Part shown: in pieces, positions 27,317 to 31,883 of the stretch
Layout: the number at the start of each line of letters is the position of its first letter
Numbering within the stretch: the stretch's first letter is position 1
Assembly (NCBI GenBank): GCA_020726325.1
Contig: DYST01000009.1
Location: 1-32,089 of the forward strand
Direction: 5' to 3'
From: Thiomicrospira cyclica
Lineage (GTDB): Bacteria > Pseudomonadota > Gammaproteobacteria > Thiomicrospirales > Thiomicrospiraceae
Length of the DNA: 32,089 bases
The notes under the pieces: generated by a model
What the model was told of the DNA's origin: nothing
Database searches by the model: none
The model's input: only the letters and a program-made list of their open reading frames with translations
Translations under genes and position numbers: made by a program

Positions 27317-29311
27317 ATGTCTTTTATCCTTGCTACCCTGCTTAAAGACAGTGATTACAAGCTCACGCAGTTTAAGCCAGAACAAATTGAACAGCTCGAA
27401 AAGCGCATCATAACTAAAGAACGCAAGGGTAAAACGACACCTTATATTACCTGTTTGGTGCGAGACAATGGCACAAAAGAGATTAAGCTCACGCCCGAAG
27501 AAGTGGTACGTCAGCTGTATTTAATGGTGCTGATAGAGGACTTAGGCTATCCCATTTCGCAAATGGCGTTGGAGTATGCTGTTGCTTTTGGCACAGAAAC
27601 CAAGCGAGCTGATATCTGTATCTTCGACAAAGACCGTCCGACCACGCCTTATATTATTGTCGAGCTTAAAAAACCAAAACTGAAAGAAGGTAAAGAACAG
27701 CTTAAAAGTTACTGTAACGCCACGGGCGCACCGATGGGCGTATGGAGTAATGGCGAAGCAATTTCTTACTATCACCGCAAAGACCCTAACTATTTCGAAG
27801 ACATCCCAGCGATTCCCAGTGCCAAAGAAAAGCTATCGGACATTTTAACCGCGCGTTGGACGATTGATGACCTTATCAAAGCCGATAAGCTAGTCAATCA
27901 GAAGAAATCATTAAAAGACTTAATTTTAGAAATGGAAGACGAAGTATTAGCAGCGGCGGGTGTTGATGCCTTTGAAGAAATGTTTAAGCTTATCTTTACC
28001 AAGTTATACGATGAAATGCAAAGCGGACGCGATAAAAAACGTACCTTGCTATTCAAAAACTATGGCGATACCGAAAGTGAACTGAAGACTAAAATTCAAA
28101 CCCTGTTTGAAAAAGCCTGCGAAAAATGGGGAGGTGTTTTCCCTGAAGGGGCAAAAATTGACCTCACACCGAGTCATTTAGCGGTTTGTGTGTCGTCGTT
28201 AGAAGGGGTAAAGCTGTTCAATTCTAATTTAGATGTGGTCGATGAAGCCTTTGAATATTTAATTAACAAAAGCAGCAAAGGCGAAAAAGGGCAATATTTC
28301 ACGCCGCGCTATGTTATCGATATGTGCGTTAAAATGCTTAATCCGCAAGAACACGAAACCCTGATTGATACTGCAGCAGGCAGTTGTGGTTTTCCCGTAC
28401 ATGGTATTTTTCATGTGTGGGAACAGATTATGCAAGACGAAGGATTAAGCAAAAGTCATTTGTTTACCAGCGAGCAAAAACCAGCGCGTTGCGAAACCTA
28501 CGTACAAGAAAAAGTCTTTGCTATCGACTTTGATGAAAAAGCGGTACGCGTCAGTCGTACCCTTAATTTAATTGCAGGCGACGGACAAACGAACGTGTTG
28601 CACTTAAACACGCTCGATTATGACCGTTGGGACGAAAAAACCAAAGACGAAAGCTGGACGGATATTTACGGTGAAGGGTGGAAAAAGTTACGCAAATTGC
28701 GCAGCGACAAAGAACAAAACCGCAATTTTAACTTCGATGTGCTGATGGCAAACCCACCCTTTGCAGGCGATATTAAAGAAAGTCGTATTTTAGCGAAATA
28801 TGAGCTAGGCAAAAAAGAGAATGGCAAATATCAAACAGCGGTAGGGCGCGATATTTTGTTTATCGAGCGTAACCTAGACTTTCTCAAACCGGGTGGACGC
28901 ATGGCGGTTGTCTTGCCGCAAGGACGGTTTAACAACAGTAGCGACAAGCGCATTCGTGCGTATATTGCAGGGCGTTGTCGTATTTTGGGCGTTATCGGGC
29001 TGCACGGTAATGTCTTTAAGCCACACACAGGCACAAAAACAAGCGTACTACTGGTGCAAAAATGGGATGACACCCTTTGTCCTAAGGTTGATGATTACCC
29101 TATCTTTTTTGCCACCATGCAAGAGCCTAGCAAAGATAATAGCGGCGATAAAATCTTTGTCAAACAATCCGATGGTTCACCGCTGCTTGATACGCATGGT
29201 CATTTAATCGTTAAGCACGATTTATTTAATCACGATGGGTTAACACAAGACGGCATTAGCGAGGCGTTTATCGAGTTTGCCAAAAAGGAAAAGCTTAGTT
29301 TTTTTCGCTAA
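27317..29311 (+). CDS. Fused restriction endonuclease/N6-adenine DNA methyltransferase (HSDR_N-like nuclease + HsdM-like MTase; Type IIG/IIB-like)
   Basis: N-terminal PD-(D/E)XK pattern RADICIFD...YIIVELKKPK...QLKSYCNATGAPMGVWSNG; HsdM helical domain; MTase motif I DTAAGSCGFP and motif IV NPPF. Confidence 0.9.
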   Translation: MSFILATLLKDSDYKLTQFKPEQIEQLEKRIITKERKGKTTPYITCLVRDNGTKEIKLTPEEVVRQLYLMVLIEDLGYPISQMALEYAVAFGTETKRADICIFDKDRPTTPYIIVELKKPKLKEGKEQLKSYCNATGAPMGVWSNGEAISYYHRKDPNYFEDIPAIPSAKEKLSDILTARWTIDDLIKADKLVNQKKSLKDLILEMEDEVLAAAGVDAFEEMFKLIFTKLYDEMQSGRDKKRTLLFKNYGDTESELKTKIQTLFEKACEKWGGVFPEGAKIDLTPSHLAVCVSSLEGVKLFNSNLDVVDEAFEYLINKSSKGEKGQYFTPRYVIDMCVKMLNPQEHETLIDTAAGSCGFPVHGIFHVWEQIMQDEGLSKSHLFTSEQKPARCETYVQEKVFAIDFDEKAVRVSRTLNLIAGDGQTNVLHLNTLDYDRWDEKTKDESWTDIYGEGWKKLRKLRSDKEQNRNFNFDVLMANPPFAGDIKESRILAKYELGKKENGKYQTAVGRDILFIERNLDFLKPGGRMAVVLPQGRFNNSSDKRIRAYIAGRCRILGVIGLHGNVFKPHTGTKTSVLLVQKWDDTLCPKVDDYPIFFATMQEPSKDNSGDKIFVKQSDGSPLLDTHGHLIVKHDLFNHDGLTQDGISEAFIEFAKKEKLSFFR

Positions 29312-29354
29312 GCCCATTTAATAAAGCCAAATATCAGGCTTTATTGGATGGGCT
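29299..29354 (+). promoter_or_regulatory. Candidate programmed -1 frameshift site (slippery heptamer + stem-loop)
   Basis: T_TTT_TTT at 29299-29305, in register with zero-frame codons AGT TTT TTT CGC TAA. Spacer CGCTA, then AGCCCATTTAATAAAGCC (29311-29328) pairs with GGCTTTATTGGATGGGCT (29337-29354): 18 bp including two G-U pairs, 8-nt loop. The -1 frame is open into the S ORF. Confidence 0.65.
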
Positions 29355-30759
29355 GGAGATTAGCGAAATTATGTTGAGTGGTTTAGAAAGAACGCTTAGG
29401 GTTGATAGCGAGTTTTATTCTAAAGAAAACTTGAAAATTGAGTCTTTTATAAAAAATAAAACTTATTCTAAATTGACAGACTTGGTTAAGGTGTCTGATG
29501 GCAACCATGCTGCGATAAGTGAAAATTTTACAACGCATGGTGTTCCCTATTATCGTGGGCAAGATGTAAATCATTTTTTTATTGAAAATTCTGCGCCAAT
29601 TTGTATTGCTAGTAGCGTATTTAACTTGCCAATTATGAAGCGTTCTCATCTTCAAAAAGGCGATGTTCTGCTTTCAATTGTTGGAACCATAGGAAGCTTA
29701 TCATTAGTCACAACAAGCGATAAGGCTACATGTAGCTGTAAATTAGCTATCTTACGACCGCATTCGATCAATAACTATTTTTTAGCTGTTTTTCTTGAAT
29801 CAATATATGGTAAAAACCAAGTTAAAAAACTCACTCGTGGTGCTGTTCAAATGGGTTTAATTCTAGAAGATTTAGACCAGTTATTAATTCCAGTTTTGAG
29901 TAATAACTTCCAAGTTTCTATTAAAAAAGTCATTAAATTAGGATATCAAAAACTACAAGACAGTAAATCACTCTACACCCAAGCCGAAACGCTATTGCTC
30001 AAAACACTAGGCTTAGATAATTTTACACCTAGCACGCAATCGGTCAATATTAAATCATTTAAAGATTCATTTGCAGCCACAGGGCGATTAGATGCGGAGT
30101 ATTATCAGTCGAAGTATGATGATTATATAAGACAAATACAGAGCTATAAGAATGGGTTTAAGTATATAGCTGACGTTTTAACCACTCCAATAAAGAACGG
30201 AACAACGCCTGATAGCGCAACTTTAGGTTATAAAACACTTGAACATTATTTTGTAAGGGTTGAGGCATTTCAACAAAACTTAACTATTGATGAAACATTG
30301 TTTTATTCTGTAAATAGTGAAGACTACTTAAAGCATAATGCTAATATTGTCTTAAAAAATGATATATTAGTTTCAATGACAGGAACAATAGGCGCAGTAG
30401 TTATTTATTTATCCAATAAGCCAGCATTGATTAATCAAAATGTTATGAGGTTGAGATGCAGTACAAATATAATAAATACGGAATGTTTTGCAGTCTATTT
30501 AAAAACAGTTGGTAAGATATTGCTTGAGAGAGTGCAAACGGGGAATGTTCAACCCTATGTAAATACTTCAAATTTTGAAACTTTGATAGTACCCTTAATT
30601 GACCTTAGCATCCAAACCCAAATAGCCGACTTAGTGCAACAAAGCTTTGCCCTTAAAAAAGAAAGTGAGCAATTGCTCGAAAAGGCAAAGCAAGCTGTTG
30701 AGTTAGCGATTGAGCAGGGTGAAGATGTGGCTATGGCGTATTTAGGAGAGACTAAATGA
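29344..30759 (+). CDS. Type I-like restriction specificity protein (HsdS), two target-recognition domains
   Basis: Two half-repeats, each opening R-[VL]-D-[SA]-E-[FY]-Y and containing K[GN]D[VI]L[LV]S..GTIG; coiled-coil linkers. The track start is a TTG inside a predicted stem; the frame is open upstream to at least 29299. Confidence 0.85.
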   Translation: MDGLEISEIMLSGLERTLRVDSEFYSKENLKIESFIKNKTYSKLTDLVKVSDGNHAAISENFTTHGVPYYRGQDVNHFFIENSAPICIASSVFNLPIMKRSHLQKGDVLLSIVGTIGSLSLVTTSDKATCSCKLAILRPHSINNYFLAVFLESIYGKNQVKKLTRGAVQMGLILEDLDQLLIPVLSNNFQVSIKKVIKLGYQKLQDSKSLYTQAETLLLKTLGLDNFTPSTQSVNIKSFKDSFAATGRLDAEYYQSKYDDYIRQIQSYKNGFKYIADVLTTPIKNGTTPDSATLGYKTLEHYFVRVEAFQQNLTIDETLFYSVNSEDYLKHNANIVLKNDILVSMTGTIGAVVIYLSNKPALINQNVMRLRCSTNIINTECFAVYLKTVGKILLERVQTGNVQPYVNTSNFETLIVPLIDLSIQTQIADLVQQSFALKKESEQLLEKAKQAVELAIEQGEDVAMAYLGETK

Positions 30760-31883
30760 GCAACACAATACAACTAACCGATGTTAAAGGTGTTGGTCGT
30801 GTTACGCTAACACTCGATGAAACTAAGCGAGTATTTACCTTTATCGGTACAAATGGTGTTGGCAAAACAAAGTGTTTAGAGTCGTTGTTTCAGTGGTTTT
30901 TGCTTACCAACAATAGCTTTTGGCAATACGCAGATAATGGTTTAATTAATTTAGAACTCTTTAATTTTACAAGCATTAGTGTCGATAATAGGTTGTTTTC
31001 TATGCCGCTTGTTGTTGGTGGGCTTCATAATCCAGCAACATTTAATACAAAAAATATTAAAGAAGTACAACATAAAAAACCTGTTGTTTTTTTGGGTTCA
31101 CAAAACAGAGGACATATCCAGCACGATAACATTTTATTGGGTAAACCAGTTGGTAGCTTTTCTGAAAGACGAAAACAATATTTTTCTTATTTGCTAACGA
31201 GCATGAAAGAAAATTTTTCTAGCTTGAATATGAATATGGGCATCGAGCAATGGTTTGTGATGCAGGCGCAATCATCGAATAAGTACCAAAAACAAGATGA
31301 TAACCGTGAAGTAGAAATAGAAACTGTATTGCGAATCCTTCACCAAATCGACAACACTATTGACGAATCATTTATAGAAATTGATGGTGATTTTAGGGTT
31401 TTTATTAAAATAAATGGGCATAAGCGGGATTTAACACAATTAAGCACAGGATTTGCATCGATTCTAAAAATTGTGCAAAGTATTGTTTCTGGCTATGGTT
31501 ATTTTACGAATGCCATCGATTTACAAAATACGCACGGCATTGTTTTAATCGATGAAATAGAAAGTCATTTACATATTAAGTGGCAGGCAAGTATTGTTGG
31601 TTTGCTTAAAACAGTTTTTCCAAATACTGTTTTTTACATAGCAACCCATTCTTCCGTTGTATTGTCTCAGTTAGAACAGGGAGAGGCTTATCGTCTTGTT
31701 CGCAATGACGATAATGCAGTTATAGCAGAAAGCATTATTGAGCCTAGCAATGTTTCGTTTATTGATCTGCTCAATGATGCCTTTGGTATCGATACAAATC
31801 AACTCAAACGGCAACAGCTCTTAAATACGAATCAACAGTTAGCAAAACAGCAATTGTTGAATTTGATTAATGGGGTTGGTTGA
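30756..31883 (+). CDS. ABC/AAA-type ATPase (COG3950-like, SMC/RecF-style P-loop protein)
   Basis: Walker A GTNGVGKT, signature-like LSTGFASILKIV, Walker B GIVLIDEIESHLH, H-loop IATHSS. ATGA overlap with the S stop. Confidence 0.85.
   Translation: MSNTIQLTDVKGVGRVTLTLDETKRVFTFIGTNGVGKTKCLESLFQWFLLTNNSFWQYADNGLINLELFNFTSISVDNRLFSMPLVVGGLHNPATFNTKNIKEVQHKKPVVFLGSQNRGHIQHDNILLGKPVGSFSERRKQYFSYLLTSMKENFSSLNMNMGIEQWFVMQAQSSNKYQKQDDNREVEIETVLRILHQIDNTIDESFIEIDGDFRVFIKINGHKRDLTQLSTGFASILKIVQSIVSGYGYFTNAIDLQNTHGIVLIDEIESHLHIKWQASIVGLLKTVFPNTVFYIATHSSVVLSQLEQGEAYRLVRNDDNAVIAESIIEPSNVSFIDLLNDAFGIDTNQLKRQQLLNTNQQLAKQQLLNLINGVG

Follow-up and report, generated by a model that had tools for sequence, protein, structure and literature searches.

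A probable programmed −1 ribosomal frameshift signal at the RM–S junction of a restriction-modification locus from Thiomicrospira cyclica

Among the restriction-modification (R-M) systems closest to the locus described here, the Type IIB enzyme BsaXI has the composition (RM)2S (PMC11997821) and BcgI the composition A2B (PMC4027205). An engineered EcoKI M-S fusion cleaved in vitro only after extra free M was supplied (PMC3510504), and how the two target-recognition domains (TRDs) of single-chain enzymes of the AloI/CjeI type manage with one RM module has been raised as an open question (PMC3874165). Here, the junction between an RM gene and the S gene that follows it was analyzed in a stretch of 32,089 nucleotides (nt) of Thiomicrospira cyclica DNA (assembly GCA_020726325.1, contig DYST01000009.1, positions 1 to 32089 of the forward strand; hereafter the window). 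A sequence-only reading of the window had proposed that a programmed −1 frameshift joins RM and S into one polypeptide. Comparative data support this proposal, and we put the probability of a programmed −1 ribosomal frameshift signal at this junction at about 0.93.

The RM–S junction of the window

The RM open reading frame (ORF; 27317-29311, plus strand, as are all features below) encodes 664 amino acids (aa), the predicted zero-frame product. Domain searches placed an HSDR_N_2-type nuclease and an N6 adenine methyltransferase (N6_Mtase) on this one polypeptide, as in Type IIB (BcgI/BsaXI-like) R-M, and the protein matched PADLOC model PDLC03034 with residues 7-664 on positions 7-670 of 672. 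The S part lies in the −1 frame relative to RM, which is open from a TAG at 29296-29298 to 30759. After a slip it would contribute 484 aa (29305-30759), made up of the linker SLSPFNKAKYQALLDGLE and two Methylase_S stretches that correspond to two TRDs, likewise as in Type IIB systems of this kind.

The RM gene ends AGT TTT TTT CGC TAA, which sets its run of seven Ts in the register xxT TTT TTT. The slippery heptamer T_TTT_TTT occupies 29299-29305, in the frame required for tandem −1 slippage, and the zero-frame stop TAA follows at 29309-29311. A spacer of 5 nt (29306-29310) leads to a putative stimulatory stem whose 5' arm (29311-29328) pairs with a 3' arm (29337-29354) over 18 bp around an 8-nt loop. 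Upstream, a Shine-Dalgarno (SD)-like AGGA at 29286-29289, absent from the sequence-only reading, is a putative 5' stimulator, at a spacing known for such elements: SD-like sequences 6-17 nt upstream of the slip site and hairpins both stimulate −1 frameshifting (PMC4066793). A −1 slip would read ...KLSFF-SLSPFNKAKYQALLDGLEISE... and yield an RMS protein of about 1147 aa (663 + 484). The start used by the ORF caller, a TTG at 29344, lies within the 3' arm and lacks a strong SD. The tract, the stem, the length of the fusion and the position of the TTG were all as the sequence-only reading had given them, by coordinates and, for the stem, also by folding.

The local fold of the window had a free energy of −28.8 kcal/mol (z −6.6), which none of 200 dinucleotide shuffles equalled. 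When the codons of the S-frame peptide were recoded synonymously, a null that the sequence-only reading had called for, one of 5000 recodings folded as well as the window stem. A search of Rfam returned a sub-threshold miRNA match only, which was taken as chance.

Conservation of heptamer, stem and linker

Junctions were compared in the best 80 of 297 relatives retrieved by a genome scan, which gave 80 readable junctions (79 relatives and the window). The RM proteins of these best 80 were mostly about 70-84% identical in their best segment, and came from Pseudomonadota, Bacteroidota, Chloroflexota, Bacillota, Thermodesulfobacteriota, Campylobacterota, Verrucomicrobiota, Spirochaetota, Ignavibacteriota and UBP6. 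Such identity across about ten phyla points to horizontal spread. The alignment of homologs that the sequence-only reading had suggested showed both slippery site and stem to be conserved. An in-phase heptamer ending 0-1 codon upstream of the stop was found at 73 of the 80 junctions, as T_TTT_TTT (49), T_TTT_TTC (3; with the former, the T class) or G_GGA_AAG (21; the G class). The remaining seven comprised four fused loci, two loci with the tract T5CG, whose S is in the +1 frame, and one locus that had lost the signal. S lay in the −1 frame at 74 of 76 unfused loci, where mixed frames would be expected of unconstrained neighbours, and its frame was open through the slip site at all 73 heptamer loci. 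In E. coli, G_GGA_AAG and C_CCA_AAG rank with the most efficient −1 motifs, and U_UUU_UUU/C is shift-prone (PMC4066793).

Codon choice at the slip site departed from that of the surrounding genes. Elsewhere in T-class RM genes 65% of Phe codons are TTT, and TTT came first at 52/52 T-class sites (P = 2e-10 if sites are independent); at G-class sites the Gly codon GGA (33% in the background) and the Lys codon AAG (18%) were used in 21/21 cases, these P values ignoring relatedness. An SD-like motif preceded the heptamer at 24 of 29 T-class loci outside Bacteroidota, compared with 15% of windows in the background (Fisher P = 4e-15), and at 12 of 23 T-class loci of Bacteroidota.

The stem was conserved along with the heptamer. 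Its 5-nt spacer was constant across relatives, and the median fold z was −5.5. In 72 aligned loci, nine consecutive stem pairs (columns 14-22) formed in 648 of 648 cells, and pairing fell sharply once the partner strand was slid. Cells changed on both sides numbered 62, against a shuffled mean of 22.5, a value reached by none of 500 shuffles. Third positions of facing Pro and Glu codons covaried (CCT/GAA 45, CCT/GAG 2, CCC/GAG 9, CCC/GAA 0; P = 7e-9 without phylogenetic correction), and compensatory changes were seen at doubly synonymous sites in the outer stem; the window's own pair is CCA/GAT. When codons were resampled from each S gene under an unchanged peptide, the stem was more stable than all 200 recodings at 86% of loci. 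That conserved amino acids alone might explain the stem, an outcome foreseen by the sequence-only reading, was rejected on the strength of the covariation, the synonymous null and the fact that several fused relatives have lost the AGCCC stem yet retain the peptide.

From the slip site up to the first usual start codon, the linker peptide SPF(N/D)E.(K/R)Y..LLEGLE, read in the S frame, was conserved, and the unpaired loop codon encoded Tyr (TAT or TAC) in 70 of 72 loci. The linker recurred in fused relatives and was absent where S has its own SD-preceded start; upstream of the usual S starts it is, judging from these comparisons, translated. A further search added the relatives L127, L128 and L129 (L numbers denote relatives throughout), each with T7, stem and S in the −1 frame, and L125, with T7 and stem but an RM frame broken upstream. 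Two loci, L013 and L024, carried a short S part of about 150-170 aa, perhaps truncated or half-size.

Fused relatives and a two-product model

Homologs with S fused in frame had been named by the sequence-only reading as a possible refutation. Such relatives exist, and they retain the slippery site with its logic inverted. All nine intact relatives whose S is fused to RM in the zero frame (L002, L004, L011, L022, L094, L110, L113, L115 and L124) have kept slippery heptamer and hairpin. Eight of them, including L094 on plasmid pAQ6 of Picosynechococcus PCC 7002, read TTT TTT GA(T/C/A), so that a −1 slip would meet TGA at once; the ninth, L110, carries C_CCA_AAG, and its −1 frame stops eight codons later. 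A strong hairpin lay 5-6 nt downstream of the heptamer in every one: two had an AGCCC/AGCTC stem, six an unrelated, covarying stem (5 of 15 pairs), and L002 a long inserted repeat. The last (L002:5469-5560) is a linker with a long inverted repeat of −50 kcal/mol, resembling an inserted repeat element that acts as hairpin. Because L113, L115, L124 and L110 were retrieved by a later search, after the pattern had been recognized, they serve as out-of-sample confirmation. L109, another fused locus retrieved by that search, has lost part of S and does not enter this count.

These observations fit the following scheme. Ribosomes ending RM would reach a slippery heptamer that is preceded by an SD-like sequence and followed, 5 nt on, by a strong hairpin. 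Part of them would stop at once and release RM, the nuclease-methyltransferase, and others would slip back one base and continue through the linker into S, giving RM-linker-S (RMS). A single mRNA would in this way yield two products in a fixed ratio. RM and RMS would then assemble as (RM)(RMS), because S has two TRDs and needs two RM modules; such a complex would be the covalently joined counterpart of the (RM)2S or A2B forms of BsaXI and BcgI and of the Type I M2S core. In fused relatives, a slip before the −1-frame stop would supply free RM, as the dnaX frameshift supplies gamma, and both layouts, window type and fused type, should make RM and RMS. Of the earlier suggestion that a recoding switch lets one locus make both proteins, the two predicted products are supported and the word switch is not, a fixed ratio fitting the data better than regulation.

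In a tree of 100 RM proteins, built by a quick method and containing long branches, the G_GGA_AAG class changed at least four times and fusion at least three times on strongly supported branches. Heptamer and topology thus turn over on the tree while the predicted outcome of two products persists; where heptamer types interchange, the stem is retained. We consider it somewhat more plausible than otherwise that the slip serves the stoichiometry of two RM to one S of Type IIB and Type I-like enzymes. With similar confidence, we suggest that a broad R-M family fixes its RM:RMS ratio by −1 frameshifting and that the slip-dependent product (RMS in the window type, RM in the fused type) was swapped in evolution with both products kept, implying (RM)(RMS) as the working form and near-even slippage. 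Slippage would be near even because, if it were rare, swapping it with the common outcome would shift the ratio greatly.

Several observations weigh against this interpretation. The SD-like motif is frequent in the T class only, with 4 of 21 loci in the G_GGA_AAG class. Two Bacteroidales loci (L026 and L030) end RM with AGT TTT TCG TAA, a T5CG tract with S in the +1 frame and the same stem, possibly shifting +1 on UUU_U. In Sediminibacillus (L063), heptamer, stem and linker have been lost, and S has gained a G-rich SD and a GTG start. In the eight fused relatives with T7, the Asp/Glu codon after Phe-Phe is enough on its own to produce the −1 TGA, and this pattern could in part reflect protein conservation. 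The partial loss of S at L109 belongs on the same side. Some separate S could be made from the TTG in the 3' arm. Finally, the need for free RM is questioned by TstI, which is active as a homotetramer of single chains, with uneven cleavage (PMC4027205).

Alternatives and comparison with known systems

The rival that survives best, and still a very unlikely one, is that RM and S are separate proteins, with ribosomes reinitiating (translational coupling) on the TTG within the 3' arm, or on an ATG further downstream, to make S, and the hairpin controlling that start. Type I hsdM and hsdS are classically coupled (PMC3510504), a TTG stands at that position in most loci, and S is annotated as starting there in the copies from Klebsiella and E. 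coli. However, an SD-preceded S-frame start was present at only 9 of 73 loci, L020 and L053 lack any S-frame start within their first 22 codons, and the linker upstream of the TTG is conserved as protein. Coupling needs no in-phase heptamer, yet the heptamer is near-universal. RM runs on to a stop within the hairpin in the Klebsiella and E. coli copies (likewise in L095); the stop position, which varies among relatives, is therefore not itself the conserved element. More distant relatives that do use their own S start (L084, L085, L116, L117, L131 and others) show a clear SD and start, and have neither heptamer nor stem nor linker.

A second rival, slippage of transcription along the T run, by which a mixed mRNA pool would give RM and RMS, is less likely again. 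T runs can slip, and T_n sites with n > 8 serve known transcriptional realignment (PMC3711429). At the same site, however, 21 loci carry G_GGA_AAG, one fused locus has C_CCA_AAG, neither with a homopolymer longer than 3-4, and three have T6C; the non-homopolymeric G_GGA_AAG therefore favours ribosomal slippage, and a constant 5-nt spacer to a covarying RNA stem likewise suits a ribosome.

A homopolymer sequencing error, an inactivating indel or a phase-variable tract, the main alternatives named by the sequence-only reading, would be conceivable in a draft assembly (110 contigs, 81% complete) but are refuted by the relatives: every T-class relative whose S is in the −1 frame has T7 or T6C; isolates and finished genomes show the same tract and frame, and the T7 junction is identical in four finished sequences, namely one plasmid of Klebsiella pneumoniae (NZ_LR890357.1) and three E. 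coli chromosomes; no variation in tract length was seen among close relatives except in the L026/L030 pair, which match each other; the stem is conserved; and a non-homopolymer heptamer substitutes in other lineages.

A programmed −1 frameshift thus remains the favoured account of the junction. Downstream of it, a PtuA-like AAA ATPase gene (30756-31883) overlaps the end of S; it probably lies outside the frameshift unit and was rejected as a partner of the system, being absent beside S at the other loci searched. A homologous ORF, mostly of about 260-300 aa, recurred just downstream of S at twelve loci (L008, L033, L034, L035, L037, L038, L047, L050, L052, L053, L057 and L070) and is a possible associated gene; two members compared with Pfam gave no match.

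Frameshifting of the −1 type is itself a known mechanism. No earlier description of it in R-M systems was found in the literature searched, including the papers on BcgI, BsaXI, AloI and TstI, in keeping with the sequence-only reading, to which no R-M system with this arrangement was known. A 2025 R-M review does not mention it in the text searched, nor does the available portion of a 2016 recoding review; the running text of the GeneTack survey is also silent, and the locus may sit unnamed in its figure or supplementary cluster tables. If the interpretation is right, this would be, as far as the literature searched shows, the first R-M system with a subunit composition set by recoding, and the family would hold a large natural collection of −1 signals from bacterial cellular genes, with several heptamer types, two hairpin families and two opposite topologies. 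It would also suggest how single-chain enzymes with two TRDs obtain a second RM module, making that question testable, and would mean that databases give S a wrong start and overlook the RMS product in the RM-S family.

Compared with known recoding systems, the junction shares several features with E. coli dnaX (tau/gamma): an SD-like element upstream, an X_XXY_YYZ heptamer, a hairpin a few nt downstream and, as predicted here, two products of one gene in one complex. The dnaX order of slip, early stop and short product is matched by the fused relatives. In contrast, dnaX belongs to another gene family, the slip in the window would make the long product, and T7, G_GGA_AAG or C_CCA_AAG replace A_AAA_AAG. 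In transposases of the IS3/IS911 type, a −1 slip likewise fuses one ORF to a second that follows in the −1 frame, and hairpins act as stimulators; those are mobile-element enzymes, whereas the aim here is probably the stoichiometry of a defence enzyme.

Among defence systems, MADS has two proteins, MAD2 and MAD5, that NCBIfam profiles place as distant relatives (E = 1e-90 and 3e-39), with scores far under the curated cut-offs (305 of 720 and 135 of 400). The EcoKI Type IMS fusion (PMC3510504) likewise joins M to S by a change of frame and cleaves in vitro only with free M; that fusion is artificial, whereas the mix in the window would arise from a natural frameshift. Close in architecture are the Type IIB enzymes BcgI and BsaXI (RM + S) and AloI and TstI (R-M-S), which likewise combine an RM fusion subunit with a two-TRD S; similarity of the window RM to RM.BsaXI is remote and low at the sequence level (E = 4e-22). 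The window locus would differ from all four in that it is predicted to make both forms, RM and RMS, by recoding.
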